Part shown: one piece after another, positions 74 through 17,362 of the stretch
Layout of the letters: each line of letters starts with the position of its first letter
How positions within the stretch are numbered: position 1 is the stretch's first letter
Source: a virus
Virus record (IMG/VR): IMGVR_UViG_3300005822_000010
Coordinates: 1-21,890 of that record
Reading direction: 5' to 3' (one strand)
DNA length: 21,890 bases
Notes under the pieces: model-generated
What the model saw: the letters and a program-made list of their open reading frames with translations, nothing else
Database searches by the model: none
What the model was told of the DNA's origin: nothing
Position numbers and translations under genes: made by a program

Positions 74-81
74 ATTAAATA
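74..81 (+). promoter_or_regulatory. Candidate late promoter box before the gp25 gene
   Basis: ATTAAATA lies 26 bases before the start codon at 108. It shares the TAAATA core with three other boxes in this window and resembles the T4 late promoter -10 element TATAAATA, which needs no -35 box. The AGGA ribosome-binding site at 97-100 sits 7 bases before the ATG, the same spacing as at 16743 and 20512. The promoter assignment is inferred from position and motif only. Confidence 0.45.
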
Positions 82-107: not shown

Positions 108-479
108 ATGGCGAAGGCACTTTACCGGGGTTTTTCTTCCGTAGCAAACGAGGGTATCCAGACCGGGTTGTTTGATATCAATTTAGTATCTCAGGATTTA
201 CTAAATCAATTCAACACCCGCCTGGGCGAACGCCGTATGCGCCCCAATTATGGTTCCGTTATTCATGATCTCATGTTCGATTTGTCAGATTCTCGCACGG
301 AAGCATTGATAGTGCAAGACGCTGAGAGAATAATTTCTGAAGACCCACGGGTGCAGCTTTTAGCACTAGAACCCACGGTGGACCTTGAAAACCACAGCAT
401 TAGACTCGATATTACATTAAAAGTTCTGGAATTCGATATGACGGCAAATTTCGCAGCAATCTTTGAGGCACAAATATAA
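108..479 (+). CDS. 25: Baseplate wedge protein, gp25-like
   Basis: This 123-residue protein belongs to the GPW/gp25 family, the inner baseplate component that joins the wedges to the hub and is thought to help start sheath assembly (the T6SS counterpart is TssE). T4 gp25 is about 132 residues, so this is full length. The recognisable core is the stretch with GERRMRPNYGS (about residues 40-50), followed by the helix and strand region SDSRTEALIVQDAERI and then DPRV; this is the usual family order of a conserved GER/RP turn, helix and C-terminal beta sheet. The start is set by AGGA at 97-100, 7 bases upstream. The stop TAA overlaps the next ATG (TAATG, 477-481), so translation with the gp6 gene is probably coupled, which fits proteins that contact each other in the baseplate. 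Confidence 0.95.
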   Translation: MAKALYRGFSSVANEGIQTGLFDINLVSQDLLNQFNTRLGERRMRPNYGSVIHDLMFDLSDSRTEALIVQDAERIISEDPRVQLLALEPTVDLENHSIRLDITLKVLEFDMTANFAAIFEAQI

Positions 480-3400
480 TGGCAAACGTAATTAGTAGAC
501 AGAATACATTATTCGTCGCTGAGGATTGGATTCAGATATACCAAGCCATTGAAAACGTTGACTTTAGAGCCTACGACTTCGATAACTTAGTCCAGGCTAT
601 AATGGATCACTTACAGCAGACCTTCCCGGAAGAATTCAACGATTGGATAGCCTCCTCGGAATTTATAATGAAAGTCGAGACACTGGCGTGGTTGTCCCAG
701 AACATCGCTTTCAGGATCGACCTGAACGCCAGGGAAAACTTTTTGGCGACAGCAGAACGTCGTAACAGCCTCATCCGCCTCGCCGAAAACGTGGCATATA
801 AGGTAGACCGTGTTACTTCCGCCAGCGGTCAAGTCCGCATCGAGCGCATAAGAACAGATCAACCAATCACCGATTCCAACGGTATTAATATCCAGAATGC
901 TGATATTATCTGGAACGACCCCCGCAACGAGGATTGGTTGGAACAGTTTATTTTGATCATGAACTCCGCATTCACTCGCCGGACCCAGTTCGGTAGACCG
1001 CTGGTTTCCACACAGACTGATGGCATCCAGAAGGACCAGTACGTTTTCAATTCGGCTGCCCCCGAGGGCGGCTCATACCCGTTCACCACCCAGGTTAATG
1101 GTGTGAACCTCCCGTTTGATACCATCAACTTGTTATTGGACAAGGATACTGGTGTGGTCGAGGAAAATATTCCTGACCCAACAAACGCTTACAACATCCT
1201 GTATAACCAGGACGGTAAAGGTCTTTCCTCCGACGGTACTGGATTCTTCTTCCAGGTAGTACAGGGAACCCTCACCTTCCGTGATGTGGATTTTGTAGAC
1301 CCGATCATTATCCGTGTGTTTGATCTTGATGTCCCCAATATTAATAATGACGATTTCTTTGTTCAAGAAGTCGATGAAAATGGTGACGTTATCCAGAATT
1401 GGACTCAGGTTGATGATGTGTTCGGTGAAGGCGTTTCATTCGATCCGGACGTTGACAGTTCGAATACCATTTATGAAATAGACACCCTACTCGGCGACAC
1501 GGTTCGGGTTCGTTTTGGTGATGGTAAATTCGGTGCGATCCCCCAGGGACTATTCAGGTTCTGGTACCGCACCGCAAACCCACAGCCGCAGGCTATCAAG
1601 CCAGAAGCCATACAGAATCAACAAGTAACCGTGCCTTATGTTGTTGACTCGACTATATTTTATTTGACATTGACATTCTCTCTGAGGGATCAGTTACTGA
1701 ATGCTGCCGCTACAGAATCGAATGACGATATCAGAACCCGTGCTAATCGGGTATTCTACACCCAGAATCGCATGGTTACCGGTCAGGATTATAATAGTTT
1801 CTTCCTGAAAGATAGTGCCATCGAGAAAGTCAAGGTTGTAAATCGGACGTATGCCGGTCACTCCAGATTCTCCAAACTGACAGACCCGACTGGATTGTAC
1901 CAGAACGTTAAGGTCATGGCAGACGATGGTAGGTTCTATAAAGATAATACTCTGACGAACACCCAGGTGTCCGCAGACATAACCATCGTGCCTATTGATT
2001 CCTTATTGAACAATTACATAGCACCTCTTATTTCAAAACCGGACAAGAATGTTCTGTATGTTAATGATTATCCGCCGATAAAGTTTGATAACACTAACAC
2101 CGATACCCGCCTTAATGGCAATGGTGACTTTGTTCTTCAACCATATGAATGGGCAGAAAATGCGATAGTTGCCGACCAGTCCCGTGGTAATATCAAGGAC
2201 AATAGTAGTAATATTTTACCGGTAGGTACCGGAAATACAACAACTAATCTTCAATTCGTTGATGTTGACGCCGTTATAACAACCGGGTTGAGCGTAAACG
2301 CATACGTGGATCGGATCGTTGATGACGGCACTGGTGCCGGATCGATAATCCTTCGTGATATAGTGCAGGACTTGGACACGATTGACTCCGTGCTCCCGGC
2401 TATGCGTACAGTATTCACTGGAGCCGAGCTTGCCAACATCGAGCAGCAATTATTGTTCCGTCTTGATTTTGGTATCTCCTGGGACTATGTGACATCCACT
2501 TGGAATATGATCACCTTTGAAAATCTCGATAAGACATCACCATTTAGCCTTGCAAACCAAGGTAATACGTCCGGCTCCGGACTTGATGCGTCGTGGATGA
2601 TTATGGCTGAATTCGTTCCTGGTGGAACCGGTGAAGATTTCTGGAGCATCACAGACCGTGGGTTTGGATTCTTCTGGGAATCAGCTCGTGAAGTCGATTT
2701 CTTCTTCGTAAATAATTCTGCTGTTCTTAATCCCGAGACTGGTGTGGTTGAACATGACGCCGTTACCATTCTTAATTGCAATGAGACCAGGGACAGCTTA
2801 CGTAGACAGTGCATCTCAGACGATCCCAGTTTTATCTCGGACTCCGGAAATGAGCTGTTTGTCTCCGATGTTCTCCGATATCCAGACGGCTACGTCAATA
2901 CTGACGGTATTTTTGTCACCCCGGCTGACTTAGATAATTCGGGATTCTACGACAATCCGTTCCTGTTTAGCGATTTCGTTGTAGAGGACGGAGTAACCGA
3001 TTTGGTTCTTTGGAGGAGTATTGATTCGCAAGGATTCACAGTACCCCAGCCGATAAACCGATTCACTTCGCCGAAAGGGACGTATGGAACGCAAGGTGTT
3101 GATACCGTTAGTGGTTATCCAGTACCGGGTGATCCCATCCAGACTAAGACGATCTATTATTCCGCCACCCCACTCGTGGCGTGTCACACTATTCCGTATG
3201 TTAGTGGTGATATTCACTATGACCAGACCACCGGTCAATGGTTGGTGGCAAATGGTGCTAACCAGACCACCCACGTTGAGGGTGAATGGGAAGTCGCTGT
3301 TAATCAGGATGCGTATCAGTATCGGATTGGTAGGGATGATCTACCGTTTAAGTGGGTTCATTACTCCCCGGATTCCATTCGAATTGACCCGTCGGTGTCG

Positions 3401-3964
3401 AATGTCATGGATGTTTATATCCTCACGGCGCTATATGATGAGCAAATCCGTTCCTGGTTGTTCAACAACGAACCACTGAGCACGATGCCAGAAGCCCCGT
3501 CCTCGGAAGCACTGCGCACTCAGTTCCAGGATTTTGAAGATTTCAAAACCATGAGTGATTCGATTATCTTCCACTCGACCAGATACTTACTGTTGTTTGG
3601 TGAGCAGGCGATACCAGAACTCCAGGCTACTTTCAAGATTGTTCAGACCCCAGGATCACTGGTTAGTGAAAACAATATCCGCCTGAGAGTTTTGGCAGCG
3701 ATCAACACATTCTTCGAAGCAGCGAACTGGGACTTCGGTGAGACATTCTACTTCACCGAACTGGCAGCATATATCCATAAGGAATTGACGCCGGATATCC
3801 AGTCGGTGGTTATCGTACCAAGGTCCAATGATTTGTCCTTTGGTGCAATGTTCCAGGTCAGGTCTGAGCCGGATCAGTTGTTCGCTTCGGCGGCAAGTGC
3901 TGAAAATGTACAGATTGTCACGAGTTTAACAGATGAAGAGCTGAAAACCTGCGCAATCGGGTAA
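479..3964 (+). CDS. 6: Baseplate wedge protein, gp6-like (enlarged)
   Basis: This 1161-residue protein is a gp6-type wedge subunit; in T4, gp6 dimers form the continuous inner ring of the baseplate. The N-terminal part (residues 36-110) holds the helical region with WLSQNIAFRIDLNARENFL. The baseplate-J-like core lies at about 400-490: ESNDDIRTRA, then TGQDYNSFF, then a GHSRF...DPTGLY segment. The C-terminal domain, about residues 1000-1161, has DSIIFHSTRY, LLLFGEQ, NWDFGETFYFTELAAYIH and VIVPRSND, matching the end of gp6 proteins. T4 gp6 is about 660 residues; the extra length is mainly at 490-1000, with segments such as DFGISWDYV, DASWMIM and YRIGRDDLPFKWVH, which I recall from gp6 of marine T4-like phages. 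It starts on the TAATG overlap with the gp25 gene and has no separate promoter. Confidence 0.93.
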   Translation: MANVISRQNTLFVAEDWIQIYQAIENVDFRAYDFDNLVQAIMDHLQQTFPEEFNDWIASSEFIMKVETLAWLSQNIAFRIDLNARENFLATAERRNSLIRLAENVAYKVDRVTSASGQVRIERIRTDQPITDSNGINIQNADIIWNDPRNEDWLEQFILIMNSAFTRRTQFGRPLVSTQTDGIQKDQYVFNSAAPEGGSYPFTTQVNGVNLPFDTINLLLDKDTGVVEENIPDPTNAYNILYNQDGKGLSSDGTGFFFQVVQGTLTFRDVDFVDPIIIRVFDLDVPNINNDDFFVQEVDENGDVIQNWTQVDDVFGEGVSFDPDVDSSNTIYEIDTLLGDTVRVRFGDGKFGAIPQGLFRFWYRTANPQPQAIKPEAIQNQQVTVPYVVDSTIFYLTLTFSLRDQLLNAAATESNDDIRTRANRVFYTQNRMVTGQDYNSFFLKDSAIEKVKVVNRTYAGHSRFSKLTDPTGLYQNVKVMADDGRFYKDNTLTNTQVSADITIVPIDSLLNNYIAPLISKPDKNVLYVNDYPPIKFDNTNTDTRLNGNGDFVLQPYEWAENAIVADQSRGNIKDNSSNILPVGTGNTTTNLQFVDVDAVITTGLSVNAYVDRIVDDGTGAGSIILRDIVQDLDTIDSVLPAMRTVFTGAELANIEQQLLFRLDFGISWDYVTSTWNMITFENLDKTSPFSLANQGNTSGSGLDASWMIMAEFVPGGTGEDFWSITDRGFGFFWESAREVDFFFVNNSAVLNPETGVVEHDAVTILNCNETRDSLRRQCISDDPSFISDSGNELFVSDVLRYPDGYVNTDGIFVTPADLDNSGFYDNPFLFSDFVVEDGVTDLVLWRSIDSQGFTVPQPINRFTSPKGTYGTQGVDTVSGYPVPGDPIQTKTIYYSATPLVACHTIPYVSGDIHYDQTTGQWLVANGANQTTHVEGEWEVAVNQDAYQYRIGRDDLPFKWVHYSPDSIRIDPSVSNVMDVYILTALYDEQIRSWLFNNEPLSTMPEAPSSEALRTQFQDFEDFKTMSDSIIFHSTRYLLLFGEQAIPELQATFKIVQTPGSLVSENNIRLRVLAAINTFFEAANWDFGETFYFTELAAYIHKELTPDIQSVVIVPRSNDLSFGAMFQVRSEPDQLFASAASAENVQIVTSLTDEELKTCAIG

Positions 3965-3981
3965 TGCTACTGTTCTTGAAA

Positions 3982-4082
3982 AATAATCCATTTGAACTTA
4001 TATAGTTCTTATGGATTATTCCAATCGTGCCCCTCGGAAATTAGTAAATAATCCTATATAATTTAATAAGGTTCAAATGGAT
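3982..4082 (+). promoter_or_regulatory. Structured leader with two competing RNA folds
   Basis: The gap before the giant gene contains two overlapping inverted repeats. Fold 1: AATAATCCAT (3982-3991) pairs perfectly with ATGGATTATT (4011-4020); inside it, after a TT/TT mismatch, GAAC (3994-3997) pairs with GTTC (4005-4008) around a 7-base loop. Fold 2: ATCCATTTGAACTT (3986-3999) pairs with AGGTTCAAATGGAT (4069-4082), 14 pairs with a single G-U. Fold 2 uses the same left arm as fold 1 and takes in the AGG of the ribosome-binding site and the first two bases of the ATG at 4081. A second copy of AATAATCC (4047-4054) could pair with GGATTATT (4013-4020) inside fold 2. The hairpin has no T-run after it on this strand, so it is not a standard terminator. 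Complementarity is seen directly; a regulatory role is inferred. Confidence 0.5.
4043..4050 (+). promoter_or_regulatory. Candidate late promoter box before the giant gene
   Basis: AGTAAATA ends 30 bases before the ATG at 4081, close to the spacing seen before the gp25 gene. An alternative host-type -10 element, TATAAT at 4057-4062, lies just downstream, but I see no good -35 box. Transcripts starting here would lack the left arm of the inhibitory helix described for 3982-4082. Confidence 0.4.
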
Positions 4083-4097
4083 GGCAAAACAACGTAG
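4077..4097 (+). other. Six-codon mini-ORF overlapping the giant gene start
   Basis: ATG at 4077 opens a frame coding for MDGKTT and stopping at TAG 4095-4097, in a different frame from the giant gene, whose ATG is at 4081. The AAGG at 4068-4071 is only 5 bases from this ATG but 9 bases from the 4081 ATG. It could take some initiations away from the main gene or be chance. The giant frame is preferred because it is 4207 codons long. Confidence 0.2.
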
Positions 4098-7000
4098 GGC
4101 ATTTACCTCATACCCTGATTATCTGAAGACTCCTCATAACGACCAGGAGACTTACATTGCGGATGATATGATGTATGAGCCCGAGAATGCTGATTTCCTT
4201 CAGGGGTATATCGGATCGGGAGAGTTGCTCACGCCTTTGGACCTTGAGCGGACCCCGCTCATCCACGAAAACACACCCGAACGTCAGAAATATCAGCTTT
4301 CCATTGGTGCCACCTACATTGAGCCGGAATTCCAGCGCAGACTTAGTGCAGCGTTCTACACCGACCTCACTGGGCAGATCACCGCAAATGGTGGGTTGTC
4401 TGATGACCCGAATCGAGTGTTTGATGTCGGGTTCTATGCTTGGACCCCGCCGATTGATTATGACAAGCATATCAATTTCAGTAGGTATTTCTGGATTGTT
4501 CCCGGTGAAGCTGCCGACATTCATGGTGTGTATATCACCAAGGAACCAGAAGCATCTAAAACCACGATTTATGAATTTGACGGAACGACATTCAATCGTG
4601 TCGAGGTTCCTATTGCTGATGGGTTGCCAGCTGTTGGTGCAGTCGGTGAATATGTGGAAGATGCTTCCAATATTACAAGGTTGATATATCGCTCCAATGG
4701 TACCTCCTGGATTGTTGTAGAATTTACACCAGTAGATAATATTCCTACCAACACTGCACCATTTGTGTCCGGCGACGTTGTGTATGTTACCAGGACCGGT
4801 CCTGAGTTCAACAGACCCCTGGTGTGGATGTATAGTGATCAGGCTAAACGTTGGATAGCCCAGCCCGTAGTCGTGTCACTGGTGGCTCCTGATGTCCCTC
4901 GTGAGGGTATGATTTGGGAAGATGCTAGGGTAAAGCCTCAGCGAAAATTTAAAATCTACACCAATGGTATGTTTGTGGACCTCGTATATACCAATGCCCC
5001 CGGTCCGTCTGGTGTTGGTACCGATCAAGAACACGTGTACGATATCAGAAACTTCTTCGATAGTATCAGTCTTAGTGATGCCCAAGACGCATGGTCCCGT
5101 GAAAACTGGTGGAGACATTATGAAGACTTATCACCTGCTGATAAGGCTGCGTTACTGTCTGAAGATCAGGCTGTACGACCAATCGTTGAATTCTGGAATG
5201 GTATAGAGTCCGTTGCTGGTGATAGTAAAGACTCAAGGAATGATCAGCCGGTATACAAAAAGTATTCTTACAATGCAACCCTGAATGATATCACGGACAC
5301 CGGCGAATCCACTACGATTTATGCATATGAGGTTGGTACCGGGCGTGATGATACCGTTCTTGGGTTCCCGCTGGAGTTCAACGCATCCGGTGAGTTCTTG
5401 TTCAACCTTACTTTAGAGAGTGACCCGTCGAGTGCTCTGGGTTACAAATATTTCAAAGACGAAAATACTGGTCTCATGCATTCCATCTGGTTCAAATCGG
5501 ATAAAGATTTGGAACAGACCCAGGATGCGGAGGGATTGTATGACGTTCCGCACAGTCTTAGCTCGAACCCAGATCACGTCATTCTGACTGAATTCTCTCG
5601 CTCTAAGATATTGGATCATATGATTAGTGTCATTGGTTCACAGGATGACGCATCCGGCAGCCCGAATGGTCCGAATGGTTATCGTTGGTCTGATAGGAGC
5701 CCCACCCTTGGAGCTTCTCTTATCGATCCCGAACAGTCGTTGCTCCGCACTATGGCAACATTACAGTCGTCGAGCCTCGATTTCACCAATGCGATGCGTG
5801 AGTCATCCAGAATTTATCAGAAGACCCTGTTTAGATTTACCAACAGGATGAATCAGCTATGGGGTGAAGATAATAAATTCGCAGACCCCGCTGGAACACT
5901 GCTTGTAACACCCACCGAGGCTGTTGACACTGTGTTAACGGAGCTGTTCGCCGGTAGGACTGGTGATTTCCCGTATGCACACTCGGACATGGGTACATAC
6001 CTGGAGACCCGAGTTGATAGCGGTACCGCAATCGTTGTTGACCCGACTAACCCTAAACCCATTTTTATCCCGCCATCACCACCAAAGGTTGGTGCATCAC
6101 CGACTTACCTACCGTCGAAGTATGTTGACACCCAGGGTAATATTTTACTCCGTGGGCATGATGGGTACATCCAGAATTCGTTCGGTGACGACAGGGACTT
6201 GATGTGGCTTGATCTACAAGATCGATTCTTCGCTAAAGTTCCAGAGTCGTACAGGACGGAGGACACCTCCTTCTCAGCTAGATATCTTCCATCTAATTTC
6301 TTCCTGGGTGATTACTACGGTAATAAAACCCCGGTAACGACACAACCCCCGGTTGACGAGGTTGTGGTTGATTATACCACCATCGTGGCACCGAGCCTGA
6401 ACCAGCGTGTGTTCTCCACCGGGCAGGCAGTGTTTGCAGATTATAATGGATCAACGTGGTTGCTCACCCAGGCAATTGTCGATGACACTTTCCTCAATAA
6501 TGGGGATAGTGAGTATTACATTTACAATGGTAAAACCACGAGCGTTATTCAACTGTTCAATAATTCATTTGATTTCGATTACAGTGATAACGAATTCCGC
6601 AAAGTAATACAGAACGAATACAGCCGTCTGGTTATATTAGAAGAGGAAGACCCTACCGCTAACGACACATTTGAAGAATCCGACAAGTTCACATGGAACT
6701 ACAGTTCTGCTGGCGTGGAAGGCAACTACCGTGGTATATATCGTCGGTTGTACAACACCATCGAGCCCCAGATTCATGCGTGGGAAGTTGTGGGATACAC
6801 CATCGAACCTACGTGGTGGAGAACTGAGTACGTCCCGACCAGCGTGGCGGCAGACGGAACCCCCAGATACGGAAGCGCACACCCGATGTGGGTTGATTTC
6901 CAGGCTGGTATTGTCAACCCGATAACTGGCGCAGTACGAGAAGAGTTTGTGATGGCTGGTCCTATACCAGTTGACGCTGCTGGTGAGCTTATAGACCCAA

Positions 7001-16709: not shown

Positions 16710-16717
16710 GATAAATA
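16710..16717 (+). promoter_or_regulatory. Candidate late promoter box, GATAAATA
   Basis: This is the best match in the window to the T4 late element TATAAATA, at seven of eight bases. It lies in the 38-base gap after the TGA of the giant gene and 25 bases before the ATG at 16743. Confidence 0.55.
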
Positions 16718-17354: not shown

Positions 17355-17362
17355 ACTAAATA
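17355..17362 (+). promoter_or_regulatory. Candidate late promoter box, ACTAAATA
   Basis: It lies in the 30-base gap between the stop at 17351 and the ATG at 17382, 19 bases before the start codon, so any leader would be very short. It shares the TAAATA core with the other three gaps. Confidence 0.4.

Follow-up and report, generated by a model that had tools for sequence, protein, structure and literature searches.

A putative late-promoter leader with a duplicated and apparently self-cancelling fold before the giant virion gene of a jumbo phage lineage

The locus and its putative late promoter

The window (the whole stretch of DNA analysed here, a virus record of 21,890 bases) carries gp25-like and gp6-like baseplate genes, a giant open reading frame and tail-fibre genes (Table 1). 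Relatives of both the gp6-like and the giant product are held by T4-superfamily jumbo phages. Two overlapping ATGs, at 4077 and 4081, lie in different frames at a workable spacing from the AAGG, and the frame opened at 4077 runs, by eye, for six codons only.

Table 1. Features of the window around the start of the giant gene
Feature	Position	Strand	Basis
gp25-like baseplate gene	108-479		
gp6-like baseplate wedge gene, 5' neighbour of the giant gene	479-3964	+	PHROG 10646, E 6e-276; tblastn to T4-superfamily jumbo phages
Copy 1, upstream repeat: degenerate box AAAATA, with ATG (4012) 32 nt on	3981-4016	+	direct repeats D1 and D2; local alignment
Local "guard" hairpin, 10 + 5 pairs, -16.9 kcal/mol	3982-4020	+	fold; arms conserved in L004
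L, left (anti-RBS) arm of the 14-pair helix	3986-3999	+	
R1, right hairpin arm, resembling the start region R2	4004-4020	+	12-mer same as R2 in L004
TAAATA box, putative gp55-type late promoter	4045-4050	+	position in relatives; gp55 homologue
Copy 2, downstream repeat, the working leader	4046-4082	+	
AATAATCC repeat, pairing with 4013-4020 in the closed form	4047-4054	+	
AAGG, Shine-Dalgarno-like	4068-4071	+	sequence
R2, start-region arm of the 14-pair helix	4069-4082	+	
Giant virion structural gene, 4207 aa	4081-16704	+	ORF; PHROG 10938 (virion structural protein), E 1.7e-192

The TAAATA box between the gp6-like and giant genes very likely serves as a T4-type (gp55) late promoter. It was found at -31 to -36 from the giant-gene ATG in all 12 metagenomic loci, which were gathered by protein rather than by leader and comprise nine distinct leaders, including that of the near-identical phage L029. 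Nine of the 11 cultured phages examined have it at -41 to -46; it is missing in Sinorhizobium phage Phosso and Agrobacterium phage Atu_ph07. All six records searched with CBB_244, the late sigma factor of phage CBB, contain a gp55 homologue, with the best match (E 3.2e-29, 55% identity) on a contig of the near-identical phage. On this contig (G006) the gp55-like late sigma gene occupies 27683-28021, on the strand opposite the baseplate genes, as in CBB. According to the account in PMC5259590, an ATAAATA consensus is predicted 5' of structural genes in CBB and likened to the T4 late promoter. When TAAATA followed after 16 to 30 nt by ATG was counted against a reversed control, records G001 to G006 gave 60/32, 65/10, 45/14, 9/4, 12/12 and 6/7, so that the pattern exceeds the control in only four of the six records, not in G005 or G006.

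T4 late RNA starts about 6 nt past the box, and by this analogy the RNA of the giant gene is expected to start near 4057. Both the position of the box and the gp55 homologues speak for the earlier note's proposal of a promoter giving RNA without the left arm of the helix described below; the note had placed the element at 4043-4050, where it is indeed present, with the box proper being the last six bases. A putative T4-type late promoter and a sigma factor are thereby recorded for an uncultured jumbo phage lineage. Three more TAAATA boxes in the window (76-81, 16712-16717 and 17357-17362) stand 25-32 nt 5' of gene ATGs, and read-through penalty (defined below) is absent from them (-0.1 to 0.9 kcal/mol). 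Since the baseplate genes carry their own box at 76-81, the gp6-like gene is itself probably late-type, and RNA reading through from it would be expected to be late.

Two competing folds in the leader

The helices, the repeat and the box described by the earlier note are all present in the sequence. The 14-pair helix (3986-3999 with 4069-4082) consists of 13 Watson-Crick pairs and one G-U pair (3998-4070), and covers A4069-G4071 as well as the first two bases of the ATG at 4081; we call this the closed form. The competing hairpin has the ten outer pairs claimed for it (3982-3991 with 4011-4020), and its inner stem (3994-3998 with 4004-4008) has five pairs, one more than had been noted. The repeat of AATAATCC was likewise found where reported, giving the closed form its inner stem. 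These matches are hard to attribute to chance. The duplex between the upstream sequence and the start region (-19.1 kcal/mol) was equalled in one of 500 shuffles, the perfect 12-nt complementarity of the left arm to the start region in none of 500, and the 151-nt fold of 3960-4110 beat all 200 dinucleotide shuffles (z -3.62). The left arm, moreover, lies 5' of the box, so the window has an upstream arm that is complementary to the Shine-Dalgarno and start and would be lost from the late RNA.

That the two folds exclude one another was borne out, but which of them wins varies with how the RNA is cut. The probability of the closed form was 0.80, 0.82, 0.91 and 0.88 in 3965-4090, 3965-4110, 3960-4110 and 3940-4130, and 0.13, 0.06, 0.04 and 0.00 in 3977-4110, 3977-4200, 3900-4200 and 3850-4300; the cuts at 3977 would mimic a ribosome on the gp6 stop. 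In four of the eight cuts, including the two longest, the hairpin had a probability of 0.86-0.98. The claim that read-through RNA is closed therefore fails in half of the cuts, and the fold calculation that had been suggested for 3960-4110 supports the closed form there, but not in the longer 3900-4200 and 3850-4300. The choice of fold window can thus easily make an apparent RNA switch, closed in the stretch first proposed and gone in longer RNA. In nascent RNA from 3964 ending at 4083 to 4110, the closed form is the minimum-energy fold of the window, and when nascent RNA reaches 4083 this holds for the window and the related locus L004 both.

Over 3964-4110 the two ensembles of the window are near-isoenergetic (closed -35.26, hairpin -33.52 kcal/mol), as might suit an RNA thermometer or a riboswitch, and a link to temperature or a ligand had been suggested. 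Computation on one cut (3977-4110) gave no fold switch from 10 to 50 C, however: the closed form stayed at 0.09-0.19 and the start region at 0.40-0.52 unpaired. Rfam gave no family at gathering score in the window, and between the window and L004 the spacer is variable, with no conserved pocket-like core. We consider a thermometer or riboswitch highly improbable.

L004, whose giant product is 83% identical to that of the window over the first 250 residues, was the one further distinct sequence in which the element was found. Scans of viral contigs recovered the element solely in the contigs of L002 and L004, and a scan by the promoter-side pattern recovered the same two; the left-arm 16-mer occurs in 99 stretches, two of which carry the hairpin by the patterns sought. 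A scan of genome contigs with query A2 found no relative. A mobile or repeated hairpin was rejected, the element being nowhere else in the contig scans. Identity between L004 and the window is 24/24 in L, 15/17 in R1, 22/22 in the promoter stretch and 14/15 in the start stretch, against 8/17 in the spacer. Two distinct sequences are too few for covariation. The L004 hairpin gains a pair (3993-4009) and loses the outermost one (3982-4020), and its long helix can form 13 of the 14 pairs, 3992-4076 being lost. As a result, the L:R2 duplex energy goes from -17.1 in the window to -13.8 kcal/mol in L004, and the balance flips to the local hairpin (closed -33.13, hairpin -36.45 kcal/mol). The start of L004 is partly covered by other pairing.

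Accessibility of the giant-gene start

The earlier note had read the closed form as a translational gate, in which the 14-pair helix would hide the start in RNA reading through from gp6, and late RNA without L would be translated. This is a known kind of control, as precedents in T4 and Aeh1 make clear. In the account given in PMC3014915, a helix hides the start of T4 e, soc, 49 and I-TevI in long RNA, the late-promoter RNA is without the left arm, and the gated genes, which are late, are also carried on long transcripts of early and middle genes; PMC2988022 describes similar arrangements for I-TevII, I-TevIII, segB and Aeh1 mobE. A box between left arm and start is the geometry of these leaders (PMC3014915, PMC2988022), and it counts for a gate in the window together with the perfect 12-nt complementarity and the four cuts in which the closed form prevails. 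The logic of the T4 gate would be missing in the window, however, since the upstream genes are probably late-type too and the read-through RNA would be late as well.

We compared leaders by the cost of opening the start region (-12 to +3), assuming an RNA start 6 nt past the box and energies at 37 C. The read-through penalty is the opening cost in read-through RNA minus that in late RNA, over 45 cuts per leader (20 for the first gene of the window); the shuffled-upstream test and the 100-leader tests used one cut per leader. Penalties for the T4 controls were 13.6 (e), 9.8 (I-TevII), 7.4 (49) and 4.2 kcal/mol (soc), a second gene 49 start giving no box and going unscored in this comparison. 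Among giant-gene leaders, the window reached 2.6, L004 3.3, L011 16.7 and L032 6.9 kcal/mol, and 15 other leaders (those without the T4 controls, L004, L011 and L032) -0.5 to 3.4 kcal/mol. The window thus exceeds 14 of these 15 ordinary leaders, CBB alone topping it, which would favour a gate, but it stays below all four T4 controls. In addition, among 100 TAAATA leaders taken from three relatives, 62 had a penalty of at least 2.6 kcal/mol (median of the 100, 3.2; a rough comparison, from one cut each), so that the leader of the window is not unusual in its read-through effect.

Shuffling the upstream sequence pointed the same way. The start was hidden as much or more in 129 of 200 shuffles for the window (67 of 100 in an earlier version with a start region of -16 to +3), so that the read-through start is no less accessible than expected. 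The controls gave 1 (e), 5 (soc), 5 (49) and 0 (I-TevII) of 200, and the relatives 0 (L011), 2 (L032) and 20 (L004).

When L (3982-3999) was barred from pairing, the opening cost in the window hardly moved (4.6 kcal/mol, native 4.7), whereas barring R1 (4004-4020) raised it to 10.8 kcal/mol; the pattern was alike in all four window cuts. In these computations, the hairpin cancels the anti-RBS arm. The cancelling is partial in L004, where the native cost of 8.4 kcal/mol became 11.7 with R1 barred and 6.5 with L barred.

On these results, the giant-gene start seems usually to be open, and a translation switch, though possible, is not supported. The shuffles, together with the preference of L004 for the hairpin (by 3.3 kcal/mol, with pair 3992-4076 broken), leave the translational gate weakly supported, and the other leaders mostly have no such helix and show no strong match of an upstream arm to the start region. 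A gate of the T4 e/soc/49/I-TevI type is, on these grounds, quite unlikely in the window.

A stronger candidate for such a gate was seen in a relative. The L011 leader (IMGVR_UViG_3300026518_000033) precedes the same giant gene as that of the window, with TAAATA at -32, and forms a single 15-pair hairpin in which TAAATA ends the left arm and AGGTGAG lies in the right arm. It was equalled by none of 500 shuffles for complementarity, and this stronger hairpin is unrelated to the fold of the window. The giant-gene leader at L038:1918-2003 is the same locus. Modelled in this way, the L011/L038 leader is a candidate for a strong T4-gene-e-like gate before a jumbo-phage virion gene. L032 (upstream of 2001) is a second relative in which the start is more hidden than in shuffles, beside a GC-rich terminator-like hairpin.

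The set of 100 leaders came from 135 fetched stretches (45 from G003, 35 from G002 and 55 from G001; L149-L228 and L234-L288), kept if they had an open frame of at least 45 codons and enough upstream sequence and were not duplicates; of the 65 pattern matches in G002, only a part was taken into the set. The 42 nt around the box paired with their own start region better than permuted leaders did (0 of 5000 permutations for the 100 leaders; G001 10, G002 495 and G003 1 of 5000). For a segment further upstream the count was 144 of 5000 overall (G001 1497, G002 1482, G003 62). The box-proximal signal is real in two of the three records; local base composition may account for some of it. In 18 of the 100 leaders the penalty equalled or exceeded that of T4 gene 49 (7.4 kcal/mol). 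By these models, RBS-hiding late leaders like that of T4 gene e may be common in these phages.

Origin of the fold and comparison with known systems

How did the window come to hold an arm that matches its own start region? In each of copies 1 and 2 an ATG follows 32 nt after a box-like end, and their alignment scores 15 in the window (reached in 2 of 1000 shuffles) and 19 in L004 (0 of 1000), where the same 12-mer stands in both copies. The two copies have the look of a partly self-complementary leader that was duplicated and then diverged, which would explain all four pairings together. The ATG of copy 1 (4012) could also open a small upstream ORF of 16 codons, through which coupling or attenuation by a leader peptide would regulate the giant gene; the equal spacing of this ATG from a degenerate box and the L004 frame, which by eye from the alignment extends over the giant start, would fit this. 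But a Shine-Dalgarno is absent before 4012, frame length and most mid residues differ between the window and L004, and the spacer is without coding constraint at 8/17 identity, and we give such an ORF very little credence.

We therefore favour, if only by a little, a late-promoter leader that was partly duplicated upstream, and whose hairpin captures and neutralises the anti-RBS arm. Expression of the giant gene would be set by the box at 4045-4050, well supported by its position in relatives, and the short RNA from about 4057 would have AAGG and ATG accessible. The repetition of part of the leader, from box-like to ATG-like end, 65 nt upstream is supported by the alignment and would have produced four arms in the order L-R1-P-R2. 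Because the duplicated unit is partly self-complementary, the arms could form either L:R1, or L:R2 enclosing R1:P. R1, a mimic of the start region that lies nearer to L, would then capture L in a stable local hairpin and cancel the hiding of the start, and in read-through RNA from gp6 the start would be about as open as without L. Against this explanation stand the four of eight cuts won by the closed form, the closed minimum-energy fold of nascent RNA reaching 4083 in the window and L004, and the incomplete neutralisation in L004.

The hairpin also lies at the site of a terminator-like hairpin in relatives, and may shape the 3' end of gp6 RNA. All eight cultured phages that combine the box with a gap longer than 70 nt (75-91 nt) have a terminator-like stem-loop, with a T-rich stretch after it, immediately downstream of gp6, which is consistent with our preferred explanation. 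This finding would also fit a simpler one, in which the hairpin is a 3'-end element of gp6 RNA (a weak terminator or RNase barrier) and the duplication produced the complementarity of L to the start as a mere by-product. Both hairpin arms are conserved in L004, and R1 is conserved though it is neither promoter nor RBS. The window hairpin has no T run behind its stem, however, and so is not a standard terminator; a promoter/terminator scan of the + strand over 3500-4500 found no terminator-like site, and the resemblance of R1 to R2 is left unexplained. A 3'-end element alone is an unlikely, if credible, account.

R1 might instead serve as a decoy that mimics the ribosome-binding region and soaks up L, leaving the leader open by default and closed on demand. 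We regard this as very unlikely. If true, L would be released to close the start, worth about 6 kcal/mol, once R1 was occupied or removed (by a repressor that also binds R2, a nuclease or an antisense RNA), and one ligand site would act twice, on R2 and through the release of L. This would invert the gate of T4 gene e and be a new way to set a leader open or closed. Our preferred reading is plainer: a late-gene leader of the ordinary sort whose fold, duplicated and self-cancelling, is unusual.

Three known systems help to place this leader. Like T4-type late promoters (gp55; TATAAATA) and the ATAAATA promoters of CBB, the window and its relatives have TAAATA 25-46 nt before structural genes and a gp55 homologue in related records; unlike the T4 sequence, the window keeps the TAAATA core only, and its RNA start is putative, read from sequence. 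With the RBS-hiding leaders of T4 e, soc, 49, I-TevI and I-TevII and of Aeh1 mobE, the window shares an upstream arm complementary to the Shine-Dalgarno and start codon, and a late promoter between arm and start. It differs from them in having a second, local hairpin that competes for the arm and, as computed, cancels it; in the position of the arm, 46-59 nt 5' of the box where theirs is beside it; and in its probably late-type upstream genes and a helix that is weakened in L004. Finally, the order of gp6 stop, hairpin, TAAATA box, Shine-Dalgarno and giant ATG is common to the window and the gp6-giant junctions of CBB, 121Q, XbC2, XaC1, KP13-7, Hallingskeid, PHA46 and Vibrio 2.275.O. These cultured junctions have a short, GC-rich hairpin with T residues behind it, and no match to the start region comparable to that of the window.
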